Part shown: positions 19,113 through 52,373 of the stretch, one piece after another
Layout: each line of letters begins with the position of its first letter
How positions within the stretch are numbered: the stretch's first letter is position 1
Source: Kosmotoga olearia TBF 19.5.1
Lineage (GTDB): Bacteria; Thermotogota; Thermotogae; Petrotogales; Kosmotogaceae
Direction: 5' to 3'
Assembly (NCBI RefSeq): GCF_000023325.1
Contig: NC_012785.1
Location: 1,364,001 to 1,428,000 of the forward strand
DNA length: 64,000 nucleotides
Translations under genes and position numbers: made by a program
Notes under the pieces: generated by a model
Database searches by the model: none
Seen by the model: the letters and a program-made list of their open reading frames with translations, nothing else
What the model was told of the DNA's origin: nothing

Positions 19113-19115
19113 GAT

Positions 19116-19916: not shown

Positions 19917-19929
19917 AGACATCACCTTT

Positions 19930-20416: not shown

Positions 20417-20435
20417 CGCCTGCGGCGTTTTTTTT
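20417..20435 (+). terminator. hairpin plus T-run at the end of the array
   Basis: CGCCtgcGGCG is followed by eight T residues, a short rho-independent-terminator shape on the + strand. It ends at the last codon of the minus-strand ATPase gene. The stem is only 4 bp, so terminator strength is uncertain. Confidence 0.5.
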
Positions 20436-21795
20436 AGTTTAATACGCATTTTTTATCAATAATCCACCCCTTATCCCGATCTAATTTTACTAGCATTATG
20501 TTTTGCATTATTTCTAAATTGTTTTTGAACCCTGTTTTTGAGACTAATATGTAGCACGATGGTTTTACACCGAGTGCCTTTTCTTTTTTATAGAGTGTAT
20601 TCAAATCGCTTTGGGTGATATTTCTATTTCTCCATTTACATTCACCAATAAACCACTGGTCTCTCTTTTTTCCTATGATATCGATCTCCAGATCGTTCTC
20701 CCAAAACCTTCCAATTCTGTCAAATCCCAGTGTGCTTGACAGAAAGATCCTGGCTTCTTTTTCGAATTGGAAGGAGACAAATTGTTCAAAATTCTTTTCA
20801 AGTTGTTCGATTACCGGCTCAATCTGCCCGAATTCAAGGTATTGAAGGTAAGGAAAAACAAAGCGATACCAGAACCTGAAAAGCGGATCAGAAATTACGT
20901 AAATTCCTTTTCTCGTTCTGATGGGGTTCTTTATGGTAACCGGTATTTCTTTTTGAACTATGTTTAACGTTATGAGGTTATGCAGGTATGGCTGAATCTT
21001 TCTTGAATCTGAAAAGCCTATTTTGCTGGCAATATCTCCAGGGCGATTGTAACCAAAGGCGAGCGCTTCAAGTATGCTTTGATATATCTTTGGCTCCCTT
21101 AGCTCTTGGGATAGTATGAAAAGGGGTTCTTCTTTGAGTGGTGCACCTGAGCTCAGAAATAGGTCAATGATATTTTTAGAAATGCTCTTTTTTGTGTCGA
21201 AAAGGTTCAAATATTGTGGGACCCCACCAGTGATTGCATATGCTTTCATCAGGTTGTGGAAGTCGTAATCAGGCAAGAAATCATTGGAATGCTCAAATTT
21301 CACCGGATTGAGTTTCATATATCCGGTTTTTCTGCCGAACACGGGGCTTTTATAAGCAAGCAATTTTTCCATAAAGCTTATGCTTGAACTACAAAGGATC
21401 AGCTTTATCTTTGATTCTTCATGATCAACAAGCATTTGAATAATTGAAGGTAATTCGGGGGAGGCTTCAACCAGGTACTGAAATTCGTCAAGAACGAGAT
21501 AAATATTTTCATCCTTCGCTTTTTGGAAGACAAATCTCAAAGCATCTTCCCAGCTTTTGAATGTAGCACCGTGAAGATTGAACAACCGGGCCACTTCATT
21601 TGAAAAAGCATCCAGAAGAGTTGAGCCCGTAACCTGTCTTCCGACAAAGAAAATACCTTTTTTCCCATATACTGCTTTTTTCAAGAGAGCAGTTTTTCCT
21701 ACTCTTCTTCTGCCATAAAGTATAAAGAATTCAAGATTATCCGAATTGAGGTACTTCTTTAATGTATTGAGTTCCTCTATCCTGTTGTAAAACAA
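20434..21795 (-). CDS. archaeal-type P-loop ATPase with nuclease-like C-terminus
   Basis: About 453 aa of the ATPase_2 plus DUF234 group, common in archaea and Thermotogota. Visible motifs are Walker A FILYGRRRVGKTALL (about 30), Walker B IYLVLDEFQYL (about 105), a helix-turn-helix (RPGDIASKIGFSDSRKIQPYL), and a C-terminal PD-(D/E)XK-like segment with EIDIIG, then ECKWR. The function of these ATPases is unknown, though they often sit in mobile or defence regions. I favour TTG at 21795 (GAGGTGAG upstream); the longer frame starts with GTG at 21804. Confidence 0.8.
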   Translation of the reverse strand: MFYNRIEELNTLKKYLNSDNLEFFILYGRRRVGKTALLKKAVYGKKGIFFVGRQVTGSTLLDAFSNEVARLFNLHGATFKSWEDALRFVFQKAKDENIYLVLDEFQYLVEASPELPSIIQMLVDHEESKIKLILCSSSISFMEKLLAYKSPVFGRKTGYMKLNPVKFEHSNDFLPDYDFHNLMKAYAITGGVPQYLNLFDTKKSISKNIIDLFLSSGAPLKEEPLFILSQELREPKIYQSILEALAFGYNRPGDIASKIGFSDSRKIQPYLHNLITLNIVQKEIPVTIKNPIRTRKGIYVISDPLFRFWYRFVFPYLQYLEFGQIEPVIEQLEKNFEQFVSFQFEKEARIFLSSTLGFDRIGRFWENDLEIDIIGKKRDQWFIGECKWRNRNITQSDLNTLYKKEKALGVKPSCYILVSKTGFKNNLEIMQNIMLVKLDRDKGWIIDKKCVLN

Positions 21796-21869
21796 TGCCC
21801 TCACCTCATGCTAATTATGAATAGACTAATTTAGATTATACTATATAATTTGATTTTTTCAAAGGTTGG

Positions 21870-23444: not shown

Positions 23445-23885
23445 TCGTTGATGTGAATGGAATGCTGGACTGCGTCCTGGAGGCTGTACGCTGCTTCGCC
23501 AAAGCTGCTCCGCAGCGGGGACGAATCCCTTCGGGATTGATCCGAACTCCTGATAAGAATCCGAGAATCCGAGAGTCCGAGAACCGGTAGCTGCTGTGCA
23601 GCGATCCGAATCCCTTCGGGATTGTTACGACCGGCTGCGCCGGTGTTACGAACTCCTGCGGAGTTGCCTAGAACCACTACGTGGTTGATAAAAAACGTTG
23701 TGGGTTGTAGGTTGTACGTAAAAAACGAGAATCCGAGAGAGCCGCTGCGCGGCGGAAAGCAGCTACGCTACTGAAGTGCTGAGGTGTGCTAAGGAGGCTC
23801 ACGACGTTGACGCTCACGAGGTTGAGGCAAGGAGCAAGTGCATCGCTGATGCTGGTGTTAGGAGCGGTCGTGCGTAAATTTTTTT
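23445..23885 (+). repeat. composite repeat with 4-unit hairpin array (23609-23686)
   Basis: A single AATCCCttcGGGATT unit lies near 23526 and the array starts at 23609, 23630, 23651 and 23672. Palindromic blocks follow (TGCTGAGGTGTGC, GGAGGCTCACGACG). The order of blocks is the same as at 21870-22240, so these are related copies of one long composite repeat. Confidence 0.88.
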
Positions 23886-28956: not shown

Positions 28957-30950
28957 GTGTGCCCGGCATGACATACAACTATAGGGTGAAAGTCCCGAAT
29001 GTGGGGAGTGAAATAAGCATTAGCTGAGGGCAAGGGTGTCACTGGTAACGGTGAATCTGAAGGAAGCCTAAGGCAAAATCCGGAACTGAACGAAAGTGAA
29101 CCAGTGTTGGCCGGTAGAGAGGGTAACCTTGCCTTACATGGGGAAGCCCAAGCTCCAACTCTACAGGTTGGGATGGCAGGATTCGGATGAAAGCTGTATG
29201 TCTTACCCGGGGAAGTCCTCACTCGTCCCAGAAATGGGTAAGCCGGAACAAGGGGAAACCCAAGGACCGGTAAAGCGGAGGAGGATGGCAGACGAACCCG
29301 TAGTAGTGTAGAACCTCTCTGAAAGGAGAAGGGACCATCGCCTTGAGCGATGGGGGTAACAGGAACCGAAAGGGCCTGTTACTTGCGAAGGGGGGAAGGG
29401 TTGAGAAAATGGCACAAAGGGAAGTGAGTATAACAGGAGCCCGTAACGGAGGCTGAAATGCTAACGACGGTTGAAAATAACCGGGGCAGGTAAGTAACCA
29501 TTGCAAAGATAGGAAGATTCCCGGGAGGGTAAAGAATCCAATCTTTGGATGGAAGAAGAAACCGATTCTGTTATATGCGACTTATCTGGAAGGCCATACA
29601 GGAGGTAACATGAGGAAGTACTACAGTCTTATTGACAAAGTTTATCTGGAATCGAACCTGGCCAAAGCATATCACAAGGTGCGAAGAAACAACGGAGCAC
29701 CCGGGATAGATGGAGTAACGGTTCAGGAGTATGGAGAAAACCTTCTGGAAAGGATCAAGAAACTCAGCGAAAAGTTGCGTAAAGGAGAATACCGGCCTTC
29801 ACCGGTAAAAAGGGTGGAAATCCCGAAAGGAAATGGGAAGACACGTATGCTCGGGATACCAACGGTAGAGGATCGGATAGTACAACAATCGCTGAAAGAA
29901 ATAATGGAACCAATCTTTGAGGAAGGATTTCATCCTTCAAGTTATGGATACAGGAAAGGAAGGAATCCACACCAAGCAGTAGAAAAAGCCTATGCTTTCG
30001 CGTGCAAATACAAAATGAAATACGTGGTCCAGTTAGACCTTAGCCAATGCTTTGACACCTTAGACCACGAAAAGATAATAGACGCAGTAGCGGAAAGAAT
30101 AAGCGATGGCAAAATATTGAGATTAATAAGAAGTTTCCTCAAAAGTGGAGTCATAACGGACCAATACCAACCCAGTGAGATGGGAAGTCCACAGGGCGGA
30201 GTAATAAGCCCCTTGTTAGCCAACATCTATCTGAACAAATTTGACCAGAAAATGATGGCCAGAGGAATAAGGATAGTGAGATATGCAGACGACATACTAA
30301 TCTTCGCAAAGAGCTACAAAAGCGCGGAAAAATACCTAAAAATAGCTATCCGGATACTGGAAAAAGAGCTGAAATTGAAGGTCAACAAAGAAAAGACGAG
30401 AATAACCACGATAGATGATGGAATCGAATTCCTTGGATTTACCATACAAAAAGGCAAAATACGAATCCAGGAAAAGAAAATAAAAAGGTTCAAAGCGAAA
30501 GTAAAAACACTCACCCGGAGAAACCAATGTACACCGATTGGAGAGATAATAAAACGGCTAAACCAATTGCTGAGAGGCTTCAGCAATTACTACAAAATAA
30601 TCGATTGGGTGGGAGTATTCAAAGGCCTCATGGGTTGGATAAGAAGGAGATTGAGAGCCATAATCCTGCGACAATGGAAGACGACAAAGAAACTATGCAG
30701 GGTGATGAGACAAAAAGGATACAGAGGCGAAATATCTGGAATAAGGATGAACAAATGGAGAAGCTCTCAATCCCGGTTGGTCAGTAGGCTACTGCCGAAC
30801 AAGTATTTCCAGAAGATAGGGCTGTATGATATGAAGCTTTCGCATGTACCACTGTCGGAGAATCCGATACTCAATCCATGAGCCGTGTACGTTGGCCCGT
30901 ACGCACGGTTCTGTGAGAGGACGGGGGGCAATGCCCCTCTCCTACTCGAT
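28957..30950 (+). mobile_element. group II intron with maturase, copy A (1,994 bp)
   Basis: It starts GTGTGCCCGGC, fitting the GUGYG 5' consensus, and has typical domain I sequence including AGGGTGAAAGTCCC. Domain V is near 30881-30912 (GAGCCGTGTACG pairing with CGTACGCACGGTTC) and domain VI runs into CTCCTACTCGAT at the 3' end. The boundary is supported by empty sites elsewhere: GGTAAG/CTTGGCT also occurs uninterrupted near 20050-20065. Copy C has the same length and appears identical. Insertion 6 nt after a hairpin points to group IIC-like targeting. Confidence 0.93.
29610..30881 (+). CDS. ltrA: group II intron reverse transcriptase/maturase, copy A
   Basis: 423 aa. RT motifs run from NNGAPGIDGVTVQEYG and RMLGIPTVEDRIVQQ through QLDLSQCFDTLDH and GSPQGGVISPLLANIYL to the catalytic YADDILIF (about 224). 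The maturase domain X follows (LLRGFSNYYKI, WIRRRLRAIILRQWK). There is no C-terminal HNH endonuclease, as in group IIC proteins, which are of similar length. The ATG follows AGGAGGTAAC. The protein splices its host RNA and copies it into new sites. Confidence 0.95.
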   Translation: MRKYYSLIDKVYLESNLAKAYHKVRRNNGAPGIDGVTVQEYGENLLERIKKLSEKLRKGEYRPSPVKRVEIPKGNGKTRMLGIPTVEDRIVQQSLKEIMEPIFEEGFHPSSYGYRKGRNPHQAVEKAYAFACKYKMKYVVQLDLSQCFDTLDHEKIIDAVAERISDGKILRLIRSFLKSGVITDQYQPSEMGSPQGGVISPLLANIYLNKFDQKMMARGIRIVRYADDILIFAKSYKSAEKYLKIAIRILEKELKLKVNKEKTRITTIDDGIEFLGFTIQKGKIRIQEKKIKRFKAKVKTLTRRNQCTPIGEIIKRLNQLLRGFSNYYKIIDWVGVFKGLMGWIRRRLRAIILRQWKTTKKLCRVMRQKGYRGEISGIRMNKWRSSQSRLVSRLLPNKYFQKIGLYDMKLSHVPLSENPILNP

Positions 30951-32477: not shown

Positions 32478-33446
32478 TCAGGAATTGTGACGATTGTGTA
32501 GTAATACGTTTTTTGCTTTCCATATTAATTGGGGTTGTAGGTTGATCCTTTGTATAAGTTTAGTATCTTGAGTTAAGAGTTCAGGTACAATTTTGCCTTC
32601 GTTGTTGAGCAGCGATAGAAATTTTTCTTCGTTATCTTTAAGTGGAAAAACGGTCCTGACGATTTCTTTTGATGCGCTTACAATTTCGTTGATTAGTTCA
32701 TCGAAAGGTATTTTCAATTTGCTTTTGTTCAGTACTGGTAGCAGTTGCTTTTTGATCTCTTTCTTGTCAGGTACGAGATCTTTTTCGGAGATTTCCATTA
32801 AATTTTTTCTGTTCAATCCTATGTAAACAACAAACGCGATTTTTACTTTTTCCCAATCGATTTCACGAATATGGTTTTTGAGACTGTATAGGTCATAAAA
32901 ATCACGAGCTGCTTTTCTTGCAAGCATAGCGACAATTTTAGAAGCTAAAAGTTCGTTTGGGTGGAGAATGGGGACTTTTTGTGCTCTGTATGAGCCGATA
33001 TTTTTCGAATCCATTATTACCGGGTCAAATATTGGTATTCTGAATTGGTAGTTGATTTCGACCTTAAGATTTCCCCCGGTGCCCATAGCGCTTTCGTACC
33101 TTAAGGAATATGAAGTTGCAGCGTCTGTTTTTCGTGAGTTTCGAATTTTGAGTTCCAGGGTTTTGAATGTAGATTCAATGAAATGTTCAAAACCCGGCCG
33201 TTCGGCATTAAGTGATTTTCGATCGGGATCTCCTATGAAATTTAGATCAATGTCTACCGACAATCTTGGGATATCGAACAGAAAGAGGTTTAGAGCTGTT
33301 CCGCCCTTTAATACGAATTTTCCTTTTAACTCGGGCGTTTTGACAGCTTCATCAAGCCATGATAGAAGTATTAAGACCTTCTCAAGGATTTCAGGACGAT
33401 ATCCTGTATCTTCCGACAGTTTTTGCAGGGTTTCTCTGGAAAGCAA
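32478..33446 (-). CDS. AbiEii-type nucleotidyltransferase toxin, copy 2
   Basis: 322 aa, differing from copy 1 at about a dozen positions, nearly all between residues 120 and 220 (for example SILNLNELL becomes PILHPNELL and HEIDWKK becomes REIDWEK). The catalytic signatures VLKGGTALNLF and RLSVDIDLNF are unchanged, so it should be active. Same TTG start and spacing to the antitoxin as copy 1. The clustered differences suggest recombination with a third allele or gene conversion of the ends. Confidence 0.9.
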   Translation of the reverse strand: MLSRETLQKLSEDTGYRPEILEKVLILLSWLDEAVKTPELKGKFVLKGGTALNLFLFDIPRLSVDIDLNFIGDPDRKSLNAERPGFEHFIESTFKTLELKIRNSRKTDAATSYSLRYESAMGTGGNLKVEINYQFRIPIFDPVIMDSKNIGSYRAQKVPILHPNELLASKIVAMLARKAARDFYDLYSLKNHIREIDWEKVKIAFVVYIGLNRKNLMEISEKDLVPDKKEIKKQLLPVLNKSKLKIPFDELINEIVSASKEIVRTVFPLKDNEEKFLSLLNNEGKIVPELLTQDTKLIQRINLQPQLIWKAKNVLLHNRHNS

Positions 33447-33449
33447 GAT

Positions 33450-34250
33450 TTATTCCTCCCATTCGAGTTCTAACAATGATTCCGGGATTGCCAGGTTCCA
33501 TTTTTTGGAAACTCGTGTCTTTTCCCTTCTTGAACGATCTAAGTAATGTATTGATTTTGGTTTCAATTTTTCGATTTCATGGAGAAGAGAGCTTTCAACG
33601 TTGAATGTTTTGCGATGGGTTTCAAGAAAGAATCCCACTTTTGCTGCTGTTGTGGAATTTTCTAAGAGCTTCAAGTATTCAAGTAGCACTCTCATATCGA
33701 GAAATTCGGTCATTTCCAGAGAACGCCATACTTCTTCGATGCCTCCACTAAGGTCCGGTCTATCAAGCATGTCAACGAATGTTCTTTCACGACAGGTAAT
33801 ACGTACCTTTAGTCCCTGGATATCTATCTCCTTTACACCGTAATTAACTTTCTTTTTTTTCAAAAGGGTGGTTGGTGGTTTGACCGGTTTGTAATATATA
33901 TCCCTGAACTCAAAAGGCTTGATGTTTCTATTTGTAATGAAGGTTCTTACGTTATGTATTGAATAAGCACTCCCATAATATTCTTGGGCAGTGTGATAAG
34001 CCAGAATCGAGTCTGAAGTTCGTTTGCCTGCTACCAAAAAAGGGTTGGGAGAGAAGTTTTCTGGATTAGCATTAGCCGGGACACTGGCATAGAGACTTCT
34101 ACATATTTTGATAATCCTTCCTTGCTTTAAGTGATAGTTTAGAAGAAGGTAATAGTTTTTTTCTGCCTTTGATTTCCAGCTTTTGAGATATTCTTTTAGT
34201 TCTGTTGTGGTAAAAACTGGATAGCTAGCGAAAAAGGAATCAAGTTTCAT
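33450..34250 (-). CDS. AbiEi-type antitoxin and autorepressor, copy 2
   Basis: Differs from copy 1 at only about two residues (F to L in the VLFEYLKLL segment, K to R in SRKEK), so each antitoxin probably neutralises both toxins. The winged-helix part and the TCRERTFVDMLDR segment are intact. Start by analogy with copy 1 at the ATG 6 bases after AAAAAGGTG; an in-frame GTG lies at 34259. Confidence 0.88.
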   Translation of the reverse strand: MKLDSFFASYPVFTTTELKEYLKSWKSKAEKNYYLLLNYHLKQGRIIKICRSLYASVPANANPENFSPNPFLVAGKRTSDSILAYHTAQEYYGSAYSIHNVRTFITNRNIKPFEFRDIYYKPVKPPTTLLKKKKVNYGVKEIDIQGLKVRITCRERTFVDMLDRPDLSGGIEEVWRSLEMTEFLDMRVLLEYLKLLENSTTAAKVGFFLETHRKTFNVESSLLHEIEKLKPKSIHYLDRSRREKTRVSKKWNLAIPESLLELEWEE

Positions 34251-34263
34251 AGACATCACCTTT

Positions 34264-34809: not shown

Positions 34810-36174
34810 GTGAGATTTTACGACAGAGTCAAAGAAAGGGAGTTTTTTGAAAAAATAAAAACCACAAAGAAAAAGCAAATGATTGTAATTTTTGGGCGGA
34901 GAAGAATAGGGAAAACTACACTGTTGCGAAAGGTGCTTCCTGATGCTGCTTACTTTTTTGTCGATACGCGTTCTTCTGAAACCCTACTTGCAGATTTTTC
35001 AAGACAAGTTTTCAATGGTCTGTTTGAAAATTGGGAAAACTTTTTTAGTTACCTCTTCAAGAACTATGAAACCGTTATCTTTGATGAATTTCAAAATTTC
35101 TTACGAGTTGATCGTTCGGTTTTTTCAAGTCTTCAAAAAGTCTGGGACGAACTGGATTCGAAAACAATGTTAATACTATGCGGCTCATATGTAGGAATGA
35201 TGAAGAGAATCTTTTTCGACAGCAAGGAACCCCTTTTTGGTAGAAGCGATTATAAACTTCAACTGAAACCATTCGATTTTATTAGTGCTGCTGAGATGCT
35301 CTTGAATTTTGGTTACCCAATTGATGAAGTAATTACCTGGTATTCAATATTGGGTGGTGTTCCTAAATATCTGTGGTATCTCGATAAAAGAAGGCCTTTC
35401 AAAGAACTTCTGTACGAACTTTTCTTTGCCGAATTCGCTCCTTTCAGGGAAGAGGGCAAAAACCTGCTTGTAGGGGAGTTTGGCTCTGAACATCCGGGAT
35501 ATTTCGCTGTACTTGAAGCAATAGGAGATCTCGACAGGGAAGCAAAGGAAATCACTGATAGAACCAACATGAATAGAACCAAAGTGATGAAGTACATGAA
35601 CGAACTGGTGAATTATTATGACATTATCGAGAAAGTGGATAATCGGTTGTCGAAGGCTCAGCGTGGGGCAAGATACAGAATAAAAGATAATTTCCTGAGT
35701 TTCTGGTTTAGATATATATATGCTCAACAGGCTGTTGTTGAGTTCAATCCGCAGGCGGCTTTTGAATATACTCTGGAAAATCAGCCGGCATCTACTGGAA
35801 GGGCTTTTGAGAAGATTATCTCTTCACTTATTCCGTTGTTTTACAATGAAGGGATAATACCTGTTATGCCCCACAAAGTGGGAAAGCACTGGGGAAAAGT
35901 ACCGGGAGCAAAGGATAAAAGTTATGAAATAGATCTGGTTGGAGAAGATAAAGCCTCAATATTAGTTTTCGAATGCAAATGGACAAATAAACCAGTTACA
36001 AGAAAAACTGCAAATGATTTTCTGAAAAAATGTGACTATATAAAGGATAGTCGAAAGAGGATTCCGGTCATGATAAGCAAATCGGGTTTTGTCGGAAACA
36101 TAGATGAGAAGATAGTAAAAATAGATCTTGACACAATAGAGAGGTTAGTTAAAAAGCATATAGGGGTTCGGTAA
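34810..36174 (+). CDS. archaeal-type P-loop ATPase with nuclease-like C-terminus
   Basis: 454 aa. Walker A is IVIFGRRRIGKTTLL (about 28), Walker B is ETVIFDEFQNFL (about 92), followed by a helix-turn-helix (AKEITDRTNMNRTKVMKYM). The C-terminal PD-(D/E)XK-like segment has SYEIDLVG, then LVFECKWTNKP. Same architecture as the ATPase at 20434 but only distantly similar in sequence. The GTG start has AGGGGTGGG upstream. The role of this ATPase group is unknown. Confidence 0.8.
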   Translation: MRFYDRVKEREFFEKIKTTKKKQMIVIFGRRRIGKTTLLRKVLPDAAYFFVDTRSSETLLADFSRQVFNGLFENWENFFSYLFKNYETVIFDEFQNFLRVDRSVFSSLQKVWDELDSKTMLILCGSYVGMMKRIFFDSKEPLFGRSDYKLQLKPFDFISAAEMLLNFGYPIDEVITWYSILGGVPKYLWYLDKRRPFKELLYELFFAEFAPFREEGKNLLVGEFGSEHPGYFAVLEAIGDLDREAKEITDRTNMNRTKVMKYMNELVNYYDIIEKVDNRLSKAQRGARYRIKDNFLSFWFRYIYAQQAVVEFNPQAAFEYTLENQPASTGRAFEKIISSLIPLFYNEGIIPVMPHKVGKHWGKVPGAKDKSYEIDLVGEDKASILVFECKWTNKPVTRKTANDFLKKCDYIKDSRKRIPVMISKSGFVGNIDEKIVKIDLDTIERLVKKHIGVR

Positions 36175-40999: not shown

Positions 41000-41366
41000 A
41001 ATGCTGGACTTCGTCCAGGAGATTTGCGAAACTGTGCGCTGATGGAGCGACGTTCGAAGACAGAGACTTGCAGACGCTGAATAAAAGCCGAGAATCCGAG
41101 AGTCCGAGAATCCGAGAACCGAGATAGCCGCTGCGCGGCGGAAGAGCTGAGCTGCGCTCAGGAGGCTCACGACGTTGACGCTCACGAGGTTGAGGCTTGC
41201 GGACGCTGATGAAATCCGAGAATCCGAGAGTCCGAGAGTCCGAGAAAAAACAAGACGCTTGCGATAAAAAAACACGAGAATCCGAGAGTCCGAGAACCGA
41301 GAGGGCCGCTGTGCGGCAGACACGAATCCCTTCGGGATTGATCCGAACTCTTTCAGAGTTGTCACG
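41000..41366 (+). repeat. composite repeat ending in 2 hairpin units (41325-41360)
   Basis: Blocks GAAGACAGAGACTTGC, GCCGCTGCGCGGC, CTGAGCTGCGCTCAGG and GAGAATCC tracts lead to hairpins at 41325 (AATCCC) and 41346 (AACTCT) with linkers GATCCG and GTCACG. The next unit would start at 41367, where intron copy B begins. The array resumes at 42134. Confidence 0.92.
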
Positions 41367-42133
41367 GTGTGCCCGGCATGACATACAACTATAGGGTGAA
41401 AGTCCCGAATGCGGGGAGCGGAATAAGCATTAGCTGAGGGCAAGGGTGTCACTGGTAACGGTGAATCTGAAGGAAGCCTAAGGCAAAATCCGGAACTGAA
41501 CGAAAGTGAACCAGTGTTGGCCGGTAGAGTGGGTAACCTTGCCGTGAATGGGTAAGCCCGAGCTCCAACTCTACAGGTTTGGATGGCAGGCTTCGGATGA
41601 AAGCTGTATGTCTTACCCGGGGAAGTCCTCACTCGTCCCAAGATGGGTAAGCCGGAACAAGGGGAGACCCAAGGACCGGTGAAGCGGAGGAGGATGGCAG
41701 ATGAACCCGTAGTAGTGTTGAACCTCTCTGAAAGGAGAAGGGACTATCGCCTTGAGCGATGGGGGTAACAGGAACCGAAAGGGTCTGTTACTTGCGAAGG
41801 GGGGAAGGGTTGAGGAAATGGCACAAAGGGAAGCGAATATAACAGGAGCCCGTAACGGAGGCTGAAATGCCGACGGTGGTCTGAAATGGCTGGGGCAGGC
41901 AAGTAATCCATTATAGGGTTGGGAATATTCCTCGAAAGGGGTAGAAAACCGATGCTTGTGTGGAAGAAGAAACCGATCCTGTTATATGCGACTTATTCTG
42001 AAGGCCATGCGGAGGTAGTATGATGGCACTTAACCACCGTCGGAGAATTCGATACTCAATCCATGAGCCGTGTACGTTGGCCCGTACGCACGGTTCTGTG
42101 AGAGGACGGGGGGATTCCCCCCTCCTACTCGAT
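41367..42133 (+). mobile_element. group II intron without maturase, copy B (767 bp)
   Basis: It shares the 5' end GTGTGCCCGGC and the roughly 650-base domain I-IV part with copies A and C, with scattered substitutions. The maturase gene is missing: after GGAGGTAGTATGATGGCACT the sequence joins directly to the region around CGGAGAATTCGATACTC and domain V. Domains V and VI are present and the 3' end is CTCCTACTCGAT. It could be spliced or moved by the maturases of copies A or C acting in trans. Its insertion splits a hairpin array exactly at a unit boundary. Confidence 0.92.
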
Positions 42134-42280: not shown

Positions 42281-42296
42281 TGATATAATTTTTTCA
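42281..42296 (+). promoter_or_regulatory. extended -10 promoter abutting the jetD start codon
   Basis: TGATATAAT, an extended -10, ends 6 bases before the ATG at 42296. Transcription would then start at or next to the A of the start codon and give a leaderless message. No ribosome binding site is visible before the ATG, which fits. Confidence 0.65.
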
Positions 42297-43342
42297 TGAA
42301 TGTGAAGAAGATTTTAATGGGATTTCTGGATGAATTTGGTGGGGTTTTTGTAGAAAGTTTTGAGCTGGAAGAGTTTTTGCGTTCCAGAGACAATTTTGAT
42401 TATTTTTCTTTTTATGAAGCGATTTCTGAGTTGGTTTTTCTCGGAGTTCTTTCCCCTGTCAGGAATTCTGGTTTCAACGGCAGAAATCCTCCACTGTACA
42501 ATAAGTATCGTAAGAGGAAACCTGGGCTATCTGCAGAAGATAGGGAGTTTCTTGATTCTCTGGATCCTGCCATAGATACTTCCAGGTATCGGAAGAGTCC
42601 CGATTTGCTGAATAGGGATAAAGGTTTTCTTGAGCTGCTGGATAGGTTTTTAAAGGCTTCTGATAGAGAGAGTTTAAGAGTTCCTTCTTCTATAAATGAA
42701 CGTTCTTTCGAGATTTTCGGAGATGAGAAGTTTCTTTCCAGCGCAGATGGTCATGCGTTTTTGCAGAATGCTTCGATTTCTGAGGATTTTTTGAATGTTT
42801 ACCGTACCCCTGAACCTTTTTTCTTCTCAAGTGATTCTGCTTATTCTGGAAGTTTGTTTAATGTACTTGTTATTGAGAACAAGGATACTTTTTATACGAT
42901 AAAGCGCTGTTTTTTTAGCAACGGATGGAGGTTGCTAGGTAAGGTTTTTTCTCATCTTGTTTATGGTGAGGGGAAGAAGATTATCAAGAGTTTTGAATTT
43001 GCTCTTGAGATTGGTTTGACTCCTGATAGTTGCAGGGTGTTTTATTTTGGAGATCTTGACCCTGAAGGGATAGGTATCTTCGAGAGTTTCAGAGAGAGGT
43101 TTTCTGATTATGATATTTGTCCTTTCGTTGAGCTGTATGAGGAACTCCTCACTGTGAATTTTTCCAGAGCTCCAAAGTTGAGAAGGAAGCAGAGGGTAAG
43201 TGCTGAGAGGTTTTCGAGGTTTCTTGAGAATTTTCCCCGGGAGGTTTCTGAAAGGATAATGGAATTGTTTGATTCGGAAAGGTATTTACCCCAGGAGGGG
43301 TTGAACTTTCAATTTTTTGATAAGGTGACAGGAAATGGGTGA
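42296..43342 (+). CDS. jetD: Wadjet protein JetD (Toprim nuclease subunit)
   Basis: 348 aa. The N-terminal two thirds resemble the arm region of JetD proteins. The C-terminal Toprim domain shows the Glu in NVLVIENKDTFYTIKR (about 191) and the DxD-type motif YFGDLDPEGIGIFESF (about 251). JetD is the nuclease that cuts plasmid DNA after loop extrusion by JetABC. It is the first gene here, whereas the named order in published systems is A-B-C-D. It overlaps jetA by 8 bases. Confidence 0.88.
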   Translation: MNVKKILMGFLDEFGGVFVESFELEEFLRSRDNFDYFSFYEAISELVFLGVLSPVRNSGFNGRNPPLYNKYRKRKPGLSAEDREFLDSLDPAIDTSRYRKSPDLLNRDKGFLELLDRFLKASDRESLRVPSSINERSFEIFGDEKFLSSADGHAFLQNASISEDFLNVYRTPEPFFFSSDSAYSGSLFNVLVIENKDTFYTIKRCFFSNGWRLLGKVFSHLVYGEGKKIIKSFEFALEIGLTPDSCRVFYFGDLDPEGIGIFESFRERFSDYDICPFVELYEELLTVNFSRAPKLRRKQRVSAERFSRFLENFPREVSERIMELFDSERYLPQEGLNFQFFDKVTGNG

Positions 43343-44882
43343 GTTATCCGGGTTTTCTGACAGAGTTAAGGGTGTTGCTATTTTTCAGCCTTTGCTGGAG
43401 CTGAAGAATCTTCGAAAGTATGAGGACTTTGATCTTTTTTCTCTTGGTTTTTCTATCCTCCTCTTTATTATGGAAAGTATGCTGTATAACCGGGAGCGTT
43501 GTGGTTATCCCGAGCTTTCGGCCTTTCTCCGGGAACAGGTTTCGATTAATTATCGCAAGATTTTATCTGAAGAAGAAAGCCTGGAACTGGCGAGGTTTCT
43601 TATGGATCATCTCAGGAATAGTGGTTCTCCATGGTGCTTTGAATATCTGGATCTGGAGGATGGGAAACCGAAGAAATACAGGTTCCATCTTATTGGTTTA
43701 GCTGATTACGACCACGGCCCCCATGGTGACAGGGATATTTATTTTAAGCTCACAGATGAGGGACTTGATCTCATCTTTAAAACGAAAGAGATTTATAAGG
43801 AGTTACGGATAAGTATTTCCCAATTGTATTTCAGGCAGCAGATTGAACGAGGTGTTTTTGATAAAGCTCTGGAGACTGTCAGGGAGCTGTTTACCCAGGT
43901 CAGAAGCCGTATGGACGAGATGGAGAAATTCAGGCGAAGGATGGTCATGAATATTGGTGGGGTTTTTACAGAGGAGTATCAGAAACAGGTGAAGGAGATA
44001 TATAACCAGTTGGAAAGGGAACAGGAGGTATTCCAGTCTCTTTCTGAACTGGTCAAAGAAAAGAAGGAAGCTTATTTGTATGAGAGGTTGGAAGAGATTG
44101 AGGAGAAGAATCTTGACCAACTCATTGAGATTTCAAATATGCTGGATATTGTGATAAATGAGCATAGCAAGCTGTTTGGGATCAAGCTTCGGACAGATGA
44201 ACAGTTCAGGAAAGCCCTGGCAGAGAGTATCCAGAATTTTATACAATCGAAGATTGATTTCAGAAAAGAGATACTTGAGAAGGTAATTGCTTCGGAAACC
44301 CGGGGTGATGATCTGAGAAGGCTTTTGCAGCCTTTACTGACTCCGGCCAGGTTCTTGGGCTTCAATCCTATGAGGATTTTTATCCCGCAGAGGCTTCAGC
44401 AGAAAAGGGAAGGTTTCAGCGAGGAAGAATTGCCCGTGGATCAGAGTTTTGCAATGGAGCTGGAAAGGGAGTTGAAAAGGAAAAGAGAGAGAGACAGGAG
44501 ATTCAGAGAGTATATTGAGGTTGTTTTTGAGCCTTTGAAGTCCAGGAACAATTATACTCTTAAAGAGGTTTTGGAAGGTCTTTCTCAGCAGAAGAGGGAA
44601 GAGTTTAGTAACAGAGCTGAGTTTTACAGTTTTCTTGTTGGTTTGCACCAACTCTCGCCTGTGGAGCTGAGGGTTGATTCTGAAATCAGGGATAAGGTTT
44701 TCGATTCTGAAGATAATCTTCCTTTTCTGCTTCTGGAATATCTTGAGAATCAAAAATTGGACAGAGAGAAGAGGTTCCTTGAGGTTCAAGCAACCTGTGA
44801 AGAGTTGAGTTTTGAGAACGGTTGTGTGGTTACCAATTATCGTTTTCATGTTATTGAGGAGGATGAATTGAATGTACGATAG
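43335..44882 (+). CDS. jetA: Wadjet protein JetA (kleisin-like subunit)
   Basis: 515 aa, matching by size, position and composition the JetA-like (DUF5716-type) kleisin of large Wadjet systems. The N-terminal part has winged-helix character (FDLFSLGFSILLFIMESM). Residues 150-400 are rich in heptad-like coiled-coil sequence, and the C-terminus again has winged-helix features. In the complex it links the heads of the JetC dimer. The ATG follows AAGGTGACAGG and overlaps the end of jetD. Family assignment rests on memory of the family and on operon context. Confidence 0.8.
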   Translation: MGELSGFSDRVKGVAIFQPLLELKNLRKYEDFDLFSLGFSILLFIMESMLYNRERCGYPELSAFLREQVSINYRKILSEEESLELARFLMDHLRNSGSPWCFEYLDLEDGKPKKYRFHLIGLADYDHGPHGDRDIYFKLTDEGLDLIFKTKEIYKELRISISQLYFRQQIERGVFDKALETVRELFTQVRSRMDEMEKFRRRMVMNIGGVFTEEYQKQVKEIYNQLEREQEVFQSLSELVKEKKEAYLYERLEEIEEKNLDQLIEISNMLDIVINEHSKLFGIKLRTDEQFRKALAESIQNFIQSKIDFRKEILEKVIASETRGDDLRRLLQPLLTPARFLGFNPMRIFIPQRLQQKREGFSEEELPVDQSFAMELERELKRKRERDRRFREYIEVVFEPLKSRNNYTLKEVLEGLSQQKREEFSNRAEFYSFLVGLHQLSPVELRVDSEIRDKVFDSEDNLPFLLLEYLENQKLDREKRFLEVQATCEELSFENGCVVTNYRFHVIEEDELNVR

Positions 44883-45588
44883 TTATACCAGGGAAGAGGT
44901 TGAAGCGGCCTTCAGGATTTATCTTTTGCTGCAGAAAAAGGGAGAGTTGAGAAGACGGGATTTTATGGACCTTTTTGAAAAGTACAGCAGTAATCCGAAG
45001 GTGAGAGATATTTTTGTTAGTGTATTTGAACCGATGGCAGAGGCGAAGGTGCTGGAATCCGAAGATGTGCTTTATCTTGTCCCGGAACCGGATAGTGATT
45101 ATCTTAGTTACAATAACGAGCAGTTGAGGGAATTGATGCGGCTGGACAACAATACAGAGCTATACTGTGCCTATTTTGTGATTTTGTGTTTGCTTTCGGA
45201 ATTTTTTGGTGCCGATTTTCTGGATGAAGTCCTCAGGGAATATATTCTGGTGAAGGATCTTGAAAGGGTTGTTTCGGCTTCTTTTGAAAGTATAGAACCT
45301 CATATGGATGAATTGGAAGTTGATTCGGGGTTCAATCTCAGGGCAGCTTATGAACACTGGAAATCTATGGAGGAATACAGGGAACTGGAACGGATGAAGG
45401 CGAGCAAGACGAATCGATATAGTTTTATTTTGAGGGTTTGTAGTTTTCTTCAGTCTCAGGGATTGGTGAATCTGGTTCAGGAAAGGGAGATATATATCAC
45501 CCGGAAAACGGAGCTTATAGTCAGGAATTTTTACGCAGGTAAGGAAACGAAGGAAAAGCTTTTGAAGTTGATCAGCGGGAGGCTTTGA
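44872..45588 (+). CDS. jetB: Wadjet protein JetB (KITE-like subunit)
   Basis: 238 aa, with an acidic, winged-helix-like N-terminus (EVEAAFRIYLLLQKKGELRR) similar to DUF6063-type JetB proteins. JetB forms the small accessory dimer that binds the kleisin. It overlaps jetA by 11 bases and ends one base before jetC, so the four genes form one transcription unit. Confidence 0.78.
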   Translation: MYDSYTREEVEAAFRIYLLLQKKGELRRRDFMDLFEKYSSNPKVRDIFVSVFEPMAEAKVLESEDVLYLVPEPDSDYLSYNNEQLRELMRLDNNTELYCAYFVILCLLSEFFGADFLDEVLREYILVKDLERVVSASFESIEPHMDELEVDSGFNLRAAYEHWKSMEEYRELERMKASKTNRYSFILRVCSFLQSQGLVNLVQEREIYITRKTELIVRNFYAGKETKEKLLKLISGRL

Positions 45589-45589
45589 G

Positions 45590-48500
45590 ATGCCGAGAAT
45601 ATGGAGAATGAGACTGGTTAATATACAGTATGATGCCGGGAAGAAGGTTTTCGCGGATGAGCTTTTTAATTTTGGGGGCAAGAACACTCTGTTTAATCTG
45701 GCGAATGGAGGAGGAAAGACTCTTCTCGTCCAGCTTATGCTTCAGACAGTCCTTCCCAATGAGAGGCTGAATAAGAGGCGCCTTTCGGATCTGCTTCAGA
45801 ACAGGAATTTTACAGGGCATATAGCCGTTGAATGGCGTCTGGATTCGGCTGAGGCTGATTTTTTGCTTACGGGTTTTTGTTTCACCAGGGGGAATGATGA
45901 GTCGGGAAGGTTGAGATATTTTATGTACACGAGTCATTATAAGGAAGCTAATCCATATGATATAAAACACTTCCCCTATGTAAACGATAAACGTCCCCTC
46001 AGCTATGACGAACTGTTGAGGCTGTTGAAGAATTTGAAGGGAAGTTATTTCAAGGTGTTTTACAGTGATTCAAAGAGAAGCGATTATCTTCGGGAATTGA
46101 GTACTTATAATCTCTTCGAGAAAGAGTGGAGACGTATTAAGGAGACCAATAACAATGAAGGTGGAATAGATGATTTTTTCAATAGTCTTCAAAGTACGGA
46201 TCAGCTTCTGGATAATCTTTTGATTCCGGTAGCCGAGGAGTTGTTTTACGATGATCCAAGGGAACAAAAAGAAAATCTGGTGGAGGCTTTCAACAATCTG
46301 AAGAATAAGCTTTTGAATATCCCGGAACTGGAGAGAAATCTAAAGGATTTGGCCCTTGTAAGGGAAAAGGGACAGGTACTTCTTGAAGCTTTCAGAGAGC
46401 GTGAAGATGCTAGCAGGGAGTTTGAGGAGCGGAAGGTTAATCTGGCAATGTATTCTAACTCTCTTGAACACTGGCATAACTGTGTTGTTGAAGAGCTCAA
46501 GGAGATTGATGAGGAATTGAGGAGTATAGAGAGGGAGGAAACGAAGAACAGATATCTCCTTGAGTCGGTGAAGTATTCCAGAGAGTATGCCGCTGTTGAG
46601 GAGAAACGACAGGAGCTTTTTGAGATCAGTTCTAAAAAAGAGGAACTCTATGAAGTGATTCAAAAAACCAAAGGGGAATTGGATCTTTCTAAAGCTGTGA
46701 ATCTTTGGTTTGAAAAGAAGGATCTGGAATCGAAAAATAGAGCTTTGAATGAAAGTATCGGTAATATGTATCTCGGAAAGGAAGAGAAACTAGAAAAGCT
46801 GATGATTTACGCGGCAACTGTTTATCAAAGGTTGGGTGAAGAGATAGAGAAATTGGAGCGGAGGCTCAGAGAAGTCGAACAGGAAAGGATTGAGAAAGAG
46901 AAAAAAAAGGAAAGTCTTCAGGAAAGGAATCGGGAGCTTAACAGGCAAAAAAGTGGTATTGCGGTGGAAAAGACAAGGCAGCAATTGAAGATTGAGGAAA
47001 GGGATAAGTTTTCCACTTCTTTGTTTGAGATTCACAAAAATGAACGCTGGCAATTGTTGCCAGATGTTGGGCTGGAAGAGTCGCGTTCTGAGTTTAGCAG
47101 ACTGGTTGAGGATCTAAAAAGTCTTGAGGTTCAAAGAGACAACCTTGAAAGGGAAAGAACAAAGATTCTCGAGGAGATGGATGAGTTAAAGATCAGAAAA
47201 CCCGAGTTGTTAGCGAGGATTGGAGCTATCGACAAGGAGATACAGGGATACAGGAAAAAAAGGCAGCAGGTTAGAGATGTGCTAAGAAGGCATGAAATCA
47301 GCTATGTTGATCTTTTTAAGGAGAAGTCTCTGATAGAACTTAAACTTGAGAAGCTCCAGAAAGAGCTGGAAGAGGAGGGCTTCGTCAATAAGTCAAGTCT
47401 TCAAGACCTCAGGAATCAACTTCAATTGATTGAGAGATACGATTTTTATGTGCCATCTGAAGAGGTTATAAAACTCAAGAAGTATCTGGAGGATTCCGGG
47501 GTTTCCTGTCGAACGGGTCCTGAATGGTTGAAATTACAGGGGTTTTCGGATGAGAAAAGGGTTCAGTATCTGAAAAGATTTCCTCTTTTGCCTTTTTCTT
47601 TGGTCGTAATCAAGGAGGAATTGAGCAGGCTGGCGAAGCTTTCGATTGATGTTGAGGAGTTTGCCGGTTCTTATCCGGTTCCTATTATCCTTTTGCCGAA
47701 GGGTTCGCTAGACACAAATGATGACAAACAGTTTTTGGAGATATTTGAAGGGCAGTATATCTTCTGGCAAAAGGCTCATGAGTATGCTTCTTCCCGGGCA
47801 TCTCTGGATTTTGTTGCTGCTGAACTTGAAAGCAAAATTGAAAGGGTCAAGGAAGTACTTAGCAGGATAGAGAATTCAATGGAGAATCTGAGAGGTACCA
47901 GGGAGATTGTGTACGCTTTTTTTGCTGATTATGCGGAGGATCTGGAGAGTTTAAGGTTGCCTGAATTGGAGGTTTTGAAGACTGAACTTGAGGCTCTTGA
48001 AGATAGGGAACATGAGTTGAAACGAGCTGCGATTTCAGCAGAAGAGCGTTTGTCCGAACTTGCTGACAGGTGGAAAAAATTGAATTCGAGGAAGGCAGAT
48101 GTCGAGGAACTCATCATTAAGTTCGAAAGGTTAATTGAACTCAACAAACAGGCTTATGAAGCAGATAAGGAATTGCGAAGGCTCAAAGAAATTGAAAATG
48201 CGATAGGTAAAGAATTGAAGGACAACGATGACGCCATCTCAAGATGCGATGAAGAACTTAAGAAGATTCACGCGCTTAAGGCTATTCTGGATAAAGATTT
48301 GTCTGATCGTCGGAAAGAAAGGGAGTTTTACAGAGAAAAGGGAAAGGGACGTAATCCTGTTTCGCTGTCTTTAACGGAGGCTATAGACTCATACAGAAGG
48401 TTGGAATCGGAACTGGGAAGCCATAGTGCAACTATAAAGCACTATGAAGAACAAATAAGGGAGAATATCAAGAGGATAGAGTCTGTGGAAAGGAAACTGT

Positions 48501-49957
48501 CAAAATTCGGATTTTCGGAGACAGAGTTTGAAGAATTCACTATGAGGGTTTCGGATATTCAGATAGAAGCTCTAGAAAAGAAACTCGATGAATTGGAGAA
48601 TGAGTATGTCGGATTAAGGGAAAAAGCTTCCGGGATTCGTGGGGAATTGAGGGAAAAAGAGAAGAATATTGAAAACATGAAAAAACGTATCGTTTCTGAG
48701 TATTCTAAGGAACCGACATTACTGGAAGAACCTGATGAACAGGAGAAAAGGTCGAATGAGGATTTAATAAGGCTTGATACGGATAAGAAACGGTGGATGG
48801 ATATAAGAAGTGAATCGGAAGGTTTTGAAAAATTGCTGGGAGAGCTCATTTTGAAAGTAAGCAATAGTATGATGCATTATAAAGTTGACAGGGTGGATGG
48901 AGGAATTACAGATCGTAGTTTGAAAGAGGTCAAAGAAAAGATCAGCGACGAGGTTGATGCGGTGATTGATTCTGTTGGAAAGGCTTTTTTGCGTCTGGAA
49001 GAATCAAAGGAGAAGGTTCGGAAAGCTGTTGGGAATTATATGGCCGTGTCAGGAGAGGCAAACAGTGATATTGTTGCCGGGTTGCTGAGCAAGATGACGT
49101 ATGAAGATTATTTTCAGCTTTCCTATTCTGAGGTAAAAGAAGCTTTTGAGTATTTATTCGGACAAATTTCGAAATATGAGAAGCAGATTCATGCTGAGCT
49201 TGTTCAAAAAGACAAAGATAAGAAGCTGTTTGTGGAAAGTTGTGTGAGGCAGACAAGGAGACTTGCAGAGGAGATAGAGGCTATTGATTCGTCGTCGTAT
49301 ATAGATTATGCCGGGAAACATTGGAAAGCTGTACAGATAAAGCTGGACAACTGGGATTTGCCGGATATGAGTGCGAAGATGGAAATTTATATAAATCGTT
49401 GTATAGAAGAATTGAAGACTATTCCCGATGAGAAAACCCAGCAACTTGATTATATAAAGAACAGACTCTCTTCGAAGAATCTTTTGAATGTTATTACGGA
49501 TTTGCGTAGATGCAAGGTAAGGGTGTTGAAACCCGAAGCCAGAGCGGAGCATTCGACGTTGCAGCCCTGGGATTCGATACAGAAATGGTCTGGTGGAGAG
49601 AAATATGCTGCCTATGCTGCTATGTTCATCGCTGTGATAAGTCATATTAGAAAGAAAAAGAGTAATCTGAGTAAGCCATGGAAGGTGCTGATAGCTGATA
49701 ATCTATTTGGAAAGGCATCGTCAGCCCACATACTTGAATATGTCTTTCAGATTCTGGAAAGAAATAGGGTTCAGCTCATCGCGCTTACTGATCACACTAA
49801 ACAAACGATTTATAATTATTTTCCGGTGGTTTATAGCTTGAAACTAAGAAGTTATTTAAACAGAGATTATGTGTCTTCAAATCTGGAGAAGGGATATTAT
49901 GATATAGCTCCTCTTGAAGAAGAGCTCCGTTCTGAAAGGCAGGAGAGTTTGTGGTGA
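45590..49957 (+). CDS. jetC: Wadjet protein JetC (SMC-like ATPase)
   Basis: 1,455 aa. Walker A is FNLANGGGKTLLVQLML (about 35-50). Two long coiled coils (about 240-640 and 730-1260) flank a globular hinge-like region (about 640-725). Near the C-terminus lie the ABC signature QKWSGGEKYAAYAAMF (about 1332) and a Walker B-like VLIADNLFGKASS, where Asn replaces the usual Glu, as I recall for this JetC subgroup. It is the loop-extruding motor that recognises small circular DNA. Size and partners resemble type III Wadjet. Confidence 0.9.
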   Translation: MPRIWRMRLVNIQYDAGKKVFADELFNFGGKNTLFNLANGGGKTLLVQLMLQTVLPNERLNKRRLSDLLQNRNFTGHIAVEWRLDSAEADFLLTGFCFTRGNDESGRLRYFMYTSHYKEANPYDIKHFPYVNDKRPLSYDELLRLLKNLKGSYFKVFYSDSKRSDYLRELSTYNLFEKEWRRIKETNNNEGGIDDFFNSLQSTDQLLDNLLIPVAEELFYDDPREQKENLVEAFNNLKNKLLNIPELERNLKDLALVREKGQVLLEAFREREDASREFEERKVNLAMYSNSLEHWHNCVVEELKEIDEELRSIEREETKNRYLLESVKYSREYAAVEEKRQELFEISSKKEELYEVIQKTKGELDLSKAVNLWFEKKDLESKNRALNESIGNMYLGKEEKLEKLMIYAATVYQRLGEEIEKLERRLREVEQERIEKEKKKESLQERNRELNRQKSGIAVEKTRQQLKIEERDKFSTSLFEIHKNERWQLLPDVGLEESRSEFSRLVEDLKSLEVQRDNLERERTKILEEMDELKIRKPELLARIGAIDKEIQGYRKKRQQVRDVLRRHEISYVDLFKEKSLIELKLEKLQKELEEEGFVNKSSLQDLRNQLQLIERYDFYVPSEEVIKLKKYLEDSGVSCRTGPEWLKLQGFSDEKRVQYLKRFPLLPFSLVVIKEELSRLAKLSIDVEEFAGSYPVPIILLPKGSLDTNDDKQFLEIFEGQYIFWQKAHEYASSRASLDFVAAELESKIERVKEVLSRIENSMENLRGTREIVYAFFADYAEDLESLRLPELEVLKTELEALEDREHELKRAAISAEERLSELADRWKKLNSRKADVEELIIKFERLIELNKQAYEADKELRRLKEIENAIGKELKDNDDAISRCDEELKKIHALKAILDKDLSDRRKEREFYREKGKGRNPVSLSLTEAIDSYRRLESELGSHSATIKHYEEQIRENIKRIESVERKLSKFGFSETEFEEFTMRVSDIQIEALEKKLDELENEYVGLREKASGIRGELREKEKNIENMKKRIVSEYSKEPTLLEEPDEQEKRSNEDLIRLDTDKKRWMDIRSESEGFEKLLGELILKVSNSMMHYKVDRVDGGITDRSLKEVKEKISDEVDAVIDSVGKAFLRLEESKEKVRKAVGNYMAVSGEANSDIVAGLLSKMTYEDYFQLSYSEVKEAFEYLFGQISKYEKQIHAELVQKDKDKKLFVESCVRQTRRLAEEIEAIDSSSYIDYAGKHWKAVQIKLDNWDLPDMSAKMEIYINRCIEELKTIPDEKTQQLDYIKNRLSSKNLLNVITDLRRCKVRVLKPEARAEHSTLQPWDSIQKWSGGEKYAAYAAMFIAVISHIRKKKSNLSKPWKVLIADNLFGKASSAHILEYVFQILERNRVQLIALTDHTKQTIYNYFPVVYSLKLRSYLNRDYVSSNLEKGYYDIAPLEEELRSERQESLW

Positions 49958-50379
49958 GCACCTTTGGAGCGGAAGTGCTGGACTGCGTCCACGACGCTTG
50001 CGAGGCTGTCAGCTGGTGGAGCGGCGCTCACGAGGTTGAGGCTTGCAGACGCTGATGAAATCCGAGAATCCGAGAGGGCCGCTGTGCGGCAGATACGAAT
50101 CCCTTCGGGATTGTTACGACCGGCTGCGCCGGTGTTACGAACTCCTGCGGAGTTGCCTCGAACCACTACGTGGTTGATAAAAAACGTTGTGGGTTGTAGG
50201 TTGTACGTAAAAAACGAGAATCCGAGAGTGCTGGACTGCGTCCAGGAGGCTTGCAAACGCTGTCAGTTGGTGGAGCGACGCTCGAAGACTGAGGCTTGCG
50301 GACGCTGATGAAAAGCTGAGATCCGAGATTCGAGAACCGAGAGTCCGAGAACCGAGAAAGCCGCTGCGCGGCTGGTGAG
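49958..50379 (+). repeat. composite repeat with 4-unit hairpin array (50098-50175)
   Basis: CTGGACTGCGTCCA and GACGCTTGCGAGGCTG blocks precede the array with starts 50098, 50119, 50140 and 50161 (AATCCC, ACCGGC, AACTCC, AACCAC). A GATAAAAAACG stretch and TTGTNGG tract follow, then purine tracts. The end is the hairpin AGCCGCTGCGCGGCT plus GGTGAG, where intron copy C begins. Confidence 0.9.
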
Positions 50380-52373
50380 GTGTGCCCGGCATGACATACA
50401 ACTATAGGGTGAAAGTCCCGAATGTGGGGAGTGAAATAAGCATTAGCTGAGGGCAAGGGTGTCACTGGTAACGGTGAATCTGAAGGAAGCCTAAGGCAAA
50501 ATCCGGAACTGAACGAAAGTGAACCAGTGTTGGCCGGTAGAGAGGGTAACCTTGCCTTACATGGGGAAGCCCAAGCTCCAACTCTACAGGTTGGGATGGC
50601 AGGATTCGGATGAAAGCTGTATGTCTTACCCGGGGAAGTCCTCACTCGTCCCAGAAATGGGTAAGCCGGAACAAGGGGAAACCCAAGGACCGGTAAAGCG
50701 GAGGAGGATGGCAGACGAACCCGTAGTAGTGTAGAACCTCTCTGAAAGGAGAAGGGACCATCGCCTTGAGCGATGGGGGTAACAGGAACCGAAAGGGCCT
50801 GTTACTTGCGAAGGGGGGAAGGGTTGAGAAAATGGCACAAAGGGAAGTGAGTATAACAGGAGCCCGTAACGGAGGCTGAAATGCTAACGACGGTTGAAAA
50901 TAACCGGGGCAGGTAAGTAACCATTGCAAAGATAGGAAGATTCCCGGGAGGGTAAAGAATCCAATCTTTGGATGGAAGAAGAAACCGATTCTGTTATATG
51001 CGACTTATCTGGAAGGCCATACAGGAGGTAACATGAGGAAGTACTACAGTCTTATTGACAAAGTTTATCTGGAATCGAACCTGGCCAAAGCATATCACAA
51101 GGTGCGAAGAAACAACGGAGCACCCGGGATAGATGGAGTAACGGTTCAGGAGTATGGAGAAAACCTTCTGGAAAGGATCAAGAAACTCAGCGAAAAGTTG
51201 CGTAAAGGAGAATACCGGCCTTCACCGGTAAAAAGGGTGGAAATCCCGAAAGGAAATGGGAAGACACGTATGCTCGGGATACCAACGGTAGAGGATCGGA
51301 TAGTACAACAATCGCTGAAAGAAATAATGGAACCAATCTTTGAGGAAGGATTTCATCCTTCAAGTTATGGATACAGGAAAGGAAGGAATCCACACCAAGC
51401 AGTAGAAAAAGCCTATGCTTTCGCGTGCAAATACAAAATGAAATACGTGGTCCAGTTAGACCTTAGCCAATGCTTTGACACCTTAGACCACGAAAAGATA
51501 ATAGACGCAGTAGCGGAAAGAATAAGCGATGGCAAAATATTGAGATTAATAAGAAGTTTCCTCAAAAGTGGAGTCATAACGGACCAATACCAACCCAGTG
51601 AGATGGGAAGTCCACAGGGCGGAGTAATAAGCCCCTTGTTAGCCAACATCTATCTGAACAAATTTGACCAGAAAATGATGGCCAGAGGAATAAGGATAGT
51701 GAGATATGCAGACGACATACTAATCTTCGCAAAGAGCTACAAAAGCGCGGAAAAATACCTAAAAATAGCTATCCGGATACTGGAAAAAGAGCTGAAATTG
51801 AAGGTCAACAAAGAAAAGACGAGAATAACCACGATAGATGATGGAATCGAATTCCTTGGATTTACCATACAAAAAGGCAAAATACGAATCCAGGAAAAGA
51901 AAATAAAAAGGTTCAAAGCGAAAGTAAAAACACTCACCCGGAGAAACCAATGTACACCGATTGGAGAGATAATAAAACGGCTAAACCAATTGCTGAGAGG
52001 CTTCAGCAATTACTACAAAATAATCGATTGGGTGGGAGTATTCAAAGGCCTCATGGGTTGGATAAGAAGGAGATTGAGAGCCATAATCCTGCGACAATGG
52101 AAGACGACAAAGAAACTATGCAGGGTGATGAGACAAAAAGGATACAGAGGCGAAATATCTGGAATAAGGATGAACAAATGGAGAAGCTCTCAATCCCGGT
52201 TGGTCAGTAGGCTACTGCCGAACAAGTATTTCCAGAAGATAGGGCTGTATGATATGAAGCTTTCGCATGTACCACTGTCGGAGAATCCGATACTCAATCC
52301 ATGAGCCGTGTACGTTGGCCCGTACGCACGGTTCTGTGAGAGGACGGGGGGCAATGCCCCTCTCCTACTCGAT
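50380..52373 (+). mobile_element. group II intron with maturase, copy C (1,994 bp)
   Basis: Same length as copy A and without visible differences, offset 21,423 bases. The 3' flank CACTCCTTCGGAGTG with the following GGGGAATAATAGACGC equals the sequence at 32075 after GTAAG, which gives a near-empty site and fixes the boundary. It lies 422 bases past jetC, so two introns bracket the Wadjet operon. Confidence 0.93.
51033..52304 (+). CDS. ltrA: group II intron reverse transcriptase/maturase, copy C
   Basis: 423 aa, the same protein as in copy A, with YADDILIF, the SPQGGVISPLLANIYL segment and domain X intact and no endonuclease domain. Identity of the two copies implies a very recent transposition or gene conversion. 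Either copy could supply maturase to the maturase-less intron. Confidence 0.95.
   Translation: MRKYYSLIDKVYLESNLAKAYHKVRRNNGAPGIDGVTVQEYGENLLERIKKLSEKLRKGEYRPSPVKRVEIPKGNGKTRMLGIPTVEDRIVQQSLKEIMEPIFEEGFHPSSYGYRKGRNPHQAVEKAYAFACKYKMKYVVQLDLSQCFDTLDHEKIIDAVAERISDGKILRLIRSFLKSGVITDQYQPSEMGSPQGGVISPLLANIYLNKFDQKMMARGIRIVRYADDILIFAKSYKSAEKYLKIAIRILEKELKLKVNKEKTRITTIDDGIEFLGFTIQKGKIRIQEKKIKRFKAKVKTLTRRNQCTPIGEIIKRLNQLLRGFSNYYKIIDWVGVFKGLMGWIRRRLRAIILRQWKTTKKLCRVMRQKGYRGEISGIRMNKWRSSQSRLVSRLLPNKYFQKIGLYDMKLSHVPLSENPILNP

Follow-up and report, generated by a model that had tools for sequence, protein, structure and literature searches.

The stretch of the Kosmotoga olearia TBF 19.5.1 genome analysed here (64,000 nucleotides, hereafter the window) carries at positions 42296-49957 a complete and intact type III Wadjet operon, a little-studied type of this anti-plasmid system, whose SMC-like ATPase shares with all the type III homologues aligned an asparagine in place of the canonical catalytic glutamate. 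Wadjet systems cut small circular DNA. A sequence-only reading of the window had already proposed a complete Wadjet, which the PADLOC profiles bear out while fixing the subtype as type III: each of the four subunits finds its best match in a type III model, with nearly the whole protein length covered, and the proteins of 515 and 238 aa correspond to the Jet families JetA3 and JetB3 (Table 1). Since the matches to Jet-family HMMs range from 1e-98 to 1e-221 across nearly full proteins, a chance pattern of open reading frames is excluded. The positions and sizes of the frames (348, 515, 238 and 1,455 aa, all on the plus strand) stand as first given, and only the description of four overlapping genes needs to be amended: jetD and jetA overlap by 8 bases and jetA and jetB by 11, whereas jetB and jetC lie 1 base apart.

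Table 1. Coordinates in the window of the type III Wadjet operon, its sequence motifs and the flanking introns and hairpins
Feature	Position	Strand	Evidence or remark
Pair of hairpin modules 21 bp apart, directly 5′ of the upstream intron	41325..41360	+	Hairpin-like units resume past the intron
Upstream group II intron, ORF-less	41367..42133	+	Rfam RF02001/RF00029 (41449-42133); boundaries from copy comparison
Extended -10-like TGATATAAT, six bases 5′ of the jetD ATG	42281..42289	+	Read from sequence
jetD (type III), Toprim nuclease subunit, 348 aa	42296..43342	+	PADLOC JetD3 PDLC00591 E=2.8e-101; Pfam JetD_C above cut-off
JetD Toprim glutamate E194	42875..42877	+	73/74 aligned type III JetD, one gap
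JetD Toprim metal-binding pair D253-x-D255	43052..43060	+	Both residues in 74/74 aligned type III JetD
jetA (type III), kleisin/MukF-like subunit, 515 aa	43335..44882	+	PADLOC JetA3 PDLC00558 E=1e-221
jetB (type III), KITE/MukE-like subunit, 238 aa	44872..45588	+	PADLOC JetB3 E=8.2e-98; Pfam DUF6063 E=5e-54
jetC (type III), SMC-like ATPase, 1,455 aa	45590..49957	+	PADLOC JetC3 E=9.2e-106, residues 1-1424
JetC Walker A NGGGKT, residues 39-44	45704..45721	+	
JetC ABC signature WSGGEK, residues 1333-1338	49586..49603	+	
JetC Walker B and D-loop D-N-L-F-G-K-A-S	49697..49720	+	Asn1371 replaces catalytic Glu; Ser1377 replaces D-loop Asp
Array of four 15-nt hairpins, one every 21 bp, 3′ of jetC and 5′ of the downstream intron	50098..50175	+	
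Downstream group II intron with RT ORF (RT 51033-52304)	50380..52373	+	Rfam RF02001/RF00029 (50462-52373); boundaries from copy comparison

To judge from its sequence and its predicted structure, the nuclease subunit JetD looks intact. The Toprim site, whose disruption had been considered earlier, is undisturbed, as E194, D253 and D255 are all present and essentially invariant in the type III alignment (n=74), and G252 and G258 are likewise kept in 73-74 of the 74 proteins. The AlphaFold model of JetD (pLDDT 90.8) has as its top solved-structure match the MksG of Corynebacterium glutamicum, followed by archaeal Topo VI-A and the JetD of Pseudomonas aeruginosa PA14, with low global TM-scores (about 0.3) that are attributed to the variable domain orientation of a two-domain protein. 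Searches by sequence with JetA, JetC and JetD as queries (phmmer and profiles) found no type III protein in the solved-structure library; JetD gave nothing useful beyond MksG (profile, E=0.78), and the JetA profile made a weak contact with MukF (E=0.12).

The position of jetD at the head of the operon, singled out by the first reading, is the rule for type III. In a survey of 84 loci selected by JetC (the best 80 JetC matches across GTDB and four further loci), 73 had all four genes and 66 of these showed the order D-A-B-C, one of them with an extra JetC fragment. The remaining complete loci were ordered either A-B-C-D (five, four of them from Halanaerobium and one from other Clostridia) or C-D-A-B (two, both from Thermotogota of another family within the same taxonomic order). 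One C-D-A-B operon (L014, genome G023, 1849-3214) encodes a JetA of only 356 aa before JetB, as against 456 aa in its sister locus L015, which could reflect a frameshift. Because the loci of this survey were the best JetC matches, a second one was made with the JetD3 profile in 399 Bacillota genomes, where 40 loci were taken and 35 were complete; D-A-B-C was found in all 35, and in two other loci JetC directly preceded JetD. A JetD-first order is thus the standard type III arrangement and the K. olearia operon a canonical one, and both surveys rule out a rearrangement as its origin. In types I and II, on the other hand, JetD comes last. Compared with the type III Wadjet of PADLOC (JetA3/B3/C3/D3), the K. 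olearia system shows the same subunits, sizes, gene order, Toprim residues and D-N Walker B, with no notable difference, and its JetC is about 23-30% identical to Bacillota type III JetC over the aligned segments. Wadjet I and II (ecJET, P. aeruginosa PA14 and MksBEFG; nvJET) likewise comprise a kleisin, a KITE protein, an SMC-like ATPase and a Toprim JetD, and their solved structures are matched by the folds predicted for K. olearia. The hinge of Wadjet-III has been described as lacking a channel, as in Wadjet-II (PMC12647877). MukBEF has in common the fold of the head domain and the three-subunit SMC architecture, but it lacks JetD and serves to organise the chromosome, not in defence.

Taken as a whole, the operon very probably encodes a functional type III Wadjet (JetDABC) that would restrict smaller circular DNA. 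JetA, JetB and JetC would form an SMC/MukBEF-like complex engaging plasmid DNA in an ATP-dependent manner, and the Toprim nuclease JetD would then cleave the engaged DNA. The integrity of the genes and the JetD residues are observed directly, whereas DNA loading, circle sensing and JetD activation would proceed as in types I and II by homology. Transposons, introns and duplicated toxin-antitoxin loci surround the operon, which could therefore be a decayed, non-functional remnant carried along as cargo of a repeat- and intron-rich island. This reading is very improbable, considering the four open frames, the full-length profile matches, the retained catalytic residues, a GC content of 0.411, close to the 0.399 of the window, and the 87-93% protein identity to a relative in another Thermotogota family, G099, with every frame intact. 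As for the island itself, which had been depicted as rich in genes against mobile elements, AbiE is indeed present twice, together with HigB-like and PemK-like genes, but these are mostly toxin-antitoxin loci. The two AbiEi/AbiEii pairs (18144-19925 and 32478-34259) are near-identical and 14 kb apart, indicating a recent duplication, and each copy is adjoined by a DUF234-type or related ATPase (20434-21804 and 34810-36174) that matches the PADLOC candidate PDC-S27.

The two introns that bracket the operon are real group II introns (Rfam RF02001/RF00029), but a meaning of the bracket, pointed out by the sequence-only reading, for the operon is not supported, as the 11 genomic copies all adjoin intergenic hairpins. 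The upstream intron, which ends 163 bases before jetD, lacks the reverse-transcriptase ORF (about 748 nt versus 1,975 nt), and about 422 bases separate jetC from the downstream intron. A third copy in the window (29039-30950 by Rfam RF02001/RF00029, with its start at 28957) also contains the RT ORF. The intron 5′ region occurs in 11 copies in the genome, three of them in the window, besides a twelfth match that is diverged and partial; the copies outside the window whose 3′ end could be read are of about 750 nt or shorter. In all 11 copies a short hairpin ends about five or six bases before the intron 5′ end, and in the eight with a readable 3′ end a hairpin, or a sequence resembling one, lies a short way 3′ of the intron. 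Counted in the 64-kb window only, perfect 15-nt hairpins (6-bp stem; loop TNC or the complement of this) number 71, versus 0-6 in dinucleotide shuffles; they extend from 12988 to 62262, mostly on the plus strand (for example at 20313-20410 and 23609-23686), and the window scan found none within the operon. Neighbouring modules are often exactly 21 bp apart, and their stems differ while each remains perfectly complementary, which makes them an unusual kind of intergenic repeat. These hairpin arrays are evidently the targets of the introns, so that a 7.7-kb block of genes in this region can be flanked by introns without any functional reason, and the introns are taken as bystanders. The introns were also considered as the ends of a composite mobile unit, a possibility rejected because one is ORF-less and the other ORF-bearing, and because all 11 copies lie beside hairpins.

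Regarding transcription of the operon, a pattern scan upstream of jetD scored no two-hexamer -35/-10 promoter. The extended -10-like TGATATAAT is also present before the jetD homologue of G099, and this suggests that it may be the operon's own promoter, possibly leaderless, with transcription starting 3′ of the intron.

The distribution of the system in the phylum is sporadic, with a strong JetD3 match in 4 of 103 Thermotogota genomes, and type III JetA is absent from all 16 other Kosmotogaceae genomes searched. A search of genome contigs with the single JetA protein retrieved no relatives, and the JetC alignment was used instead. The closest relative is the G099 operon, with JetC and JetD 87% and JetA 93% identical, and upstream of jetD the DNA of both genomes remains similar until, close to the boundary of the intron, hairpin repeats take over. 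In a JetA tree with long branches and without an outgroup, the K. olearia and G099 proteins pair among Bacillota loci. Given that the close kin are Bacillota apart from a single genome, which belongs to another Thermotogota family, the sequences indicate that the operon was probably acquired horizontally. The earlier suggestion that Wadjet could account for a lack of plasmids in this lineage fares less well. No plasmids are listed for either K. olearia or Kosmotoga pacifica (PMC5217533, Table 5), and the link is unsupported, since K. pacifica, devoid of Wadjet, is equally plasmid-free; Mesotoga prima MesG1.Ag.4.2 carries a plasmid (PMC4603820). Pontibacillus has a distant type III operon of D-A-B-C order that itself resides on a plasmid, an 898-kb replicon (L012, NZ_CP062975.1), well above the size cut-off of 50-100 kb quoted for Wadjet targets (PMC12287153). 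In this Pontibacillus locus, a gene for a MerR-family regulator lies upstream and overlaps jetD.

The feature that sets type III apart resides in the ATPase head of JetC, whose Walker A and signature motifs are otherwise of the standard kind. The Walker B region of the K. olearia protein reads VLIADNLFGKASS, whereas in the same collection it reads VVFDEAFNKMDE in type I and ISLDEAFAGVDEE in type II, with the motifs DEAFNKMD and DEAFAGVD, respectively; that is, D-E-A-F-x-x-x-D in types I and II versus D-N-P/L-F-G-K-A-S in type III. D1370 and N1371 are shared without exception by the 36 type III JetC aligned, namely that of the window and 35 from the JetD-selected sample, which were chosen without reference to the Walker B motif; loci scanned with a pattern containing DN[PL]FGKAS are a biased sample and were not counted. 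Profile-profile alignment (hhalign) places DNLFGKASS onto DEAFNKMDE (E 2.5e-4) and DEAFAGVDE (E 1.5e-4), ungapped at the motif, with Asn1371 aligned to the glutamate of type I and II JetC, and the canonical catalytic Walker B glutamate is therefore absent. The assignment of the fold is independent of this motif, since a model of the JetC C-lobe (pLDDT 84) matches the heads of MukB (Foldseek E=3e-5), of PA14 JetC of type I (1.2e-4), of Wadjet-II JetC and of SMC proteins; the global TM-scores are modest because the model spans the C-lobe and the coiled coil alone. A literature search limited to open-access papers, and so not extending to subscription articles or preprints, turned up no account of the asparagine in type III.

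With the canonical glutamate replaced by asparagine, the ATP cycle of type III must, as far as the sequences tell, differ from that of types I and II, either through another general base or through an ATP-gated clamp with slow or absent hydrolysis. Asn1371 could mean that no ATP is hydrolysed, in which case type III may not follow the loop-extrusion model drawn up for types I and II. Of both options, hydrolysis via another general base is the more likely. It would be a sub-case of the functional Wadjet favoured above, in which the asparagine and the altered D-loop form a co-evolved active site and hydrolysis is normal, and we would give it somewhat less than an even chance: the strict conservation of the asparagine, the Walker A and the signature speaks of selection rather than decay, but the aligned C-lobes show no invariant acidic residue that could stand in for the glutamate, their invariant positions being S179, D215, N216, F218, Q240 and F256 (A7 numbering), the N-lobe having been looked at in less depth. 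Alternatively, type III Wadjet would be an ATP-gated sensor or clamp and not a processive extruder, ATP binding closing the heads on DNA and licensing JetD with little or no hydrolysis. This mode of action is rather unlikely, although it draws on several facts: the D-N Walker B in all the JetD-selected type III JetC versus D-E in types I and II, the replacement of the D-loop aspartate as well, and the engineered E1042Q change, which inactivates the type I motor MksB by impairing its ATPase activity (PMC10123090). A natural precedent is offered by Lamassu, for which the same mode has been proposed: its SMC/Rad50-like defence ATPase LmuB naturally has Q in place of the glutamate of Walker B, and is suspected of hydrolysing ATP poorly, if at all (PMC10586767). 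LmuB is, however, far shorter and acts with another effector and other subunits, and its match here is confined to the coiled-coil region (E=2.3e-05). Moreover, asparagine is not glutamine, another residue could serve as the base, and types I and II, with which type III is grouped as anti-plasmid, would depend on a working motor for their mechanism. A slimmer chance still is given to the broader proposal that the whole type III branch restricts without the canonical SMC hydrolysis cycle, as a hydrolysis-poor, ATP-gated complex that would sense circles by means other than loop extrusion.

In any case, types I and II, which possess the glutamate, are the basis of the loop-extrusion model of plasmid sensing. 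If type III restricts plasmids without this catalytic residue, either the model is not general or SMC ATPases include a new catalytic arrangement, and a thermophilic complex such as the type III Wadjet of K. olearia may be handy to purify.
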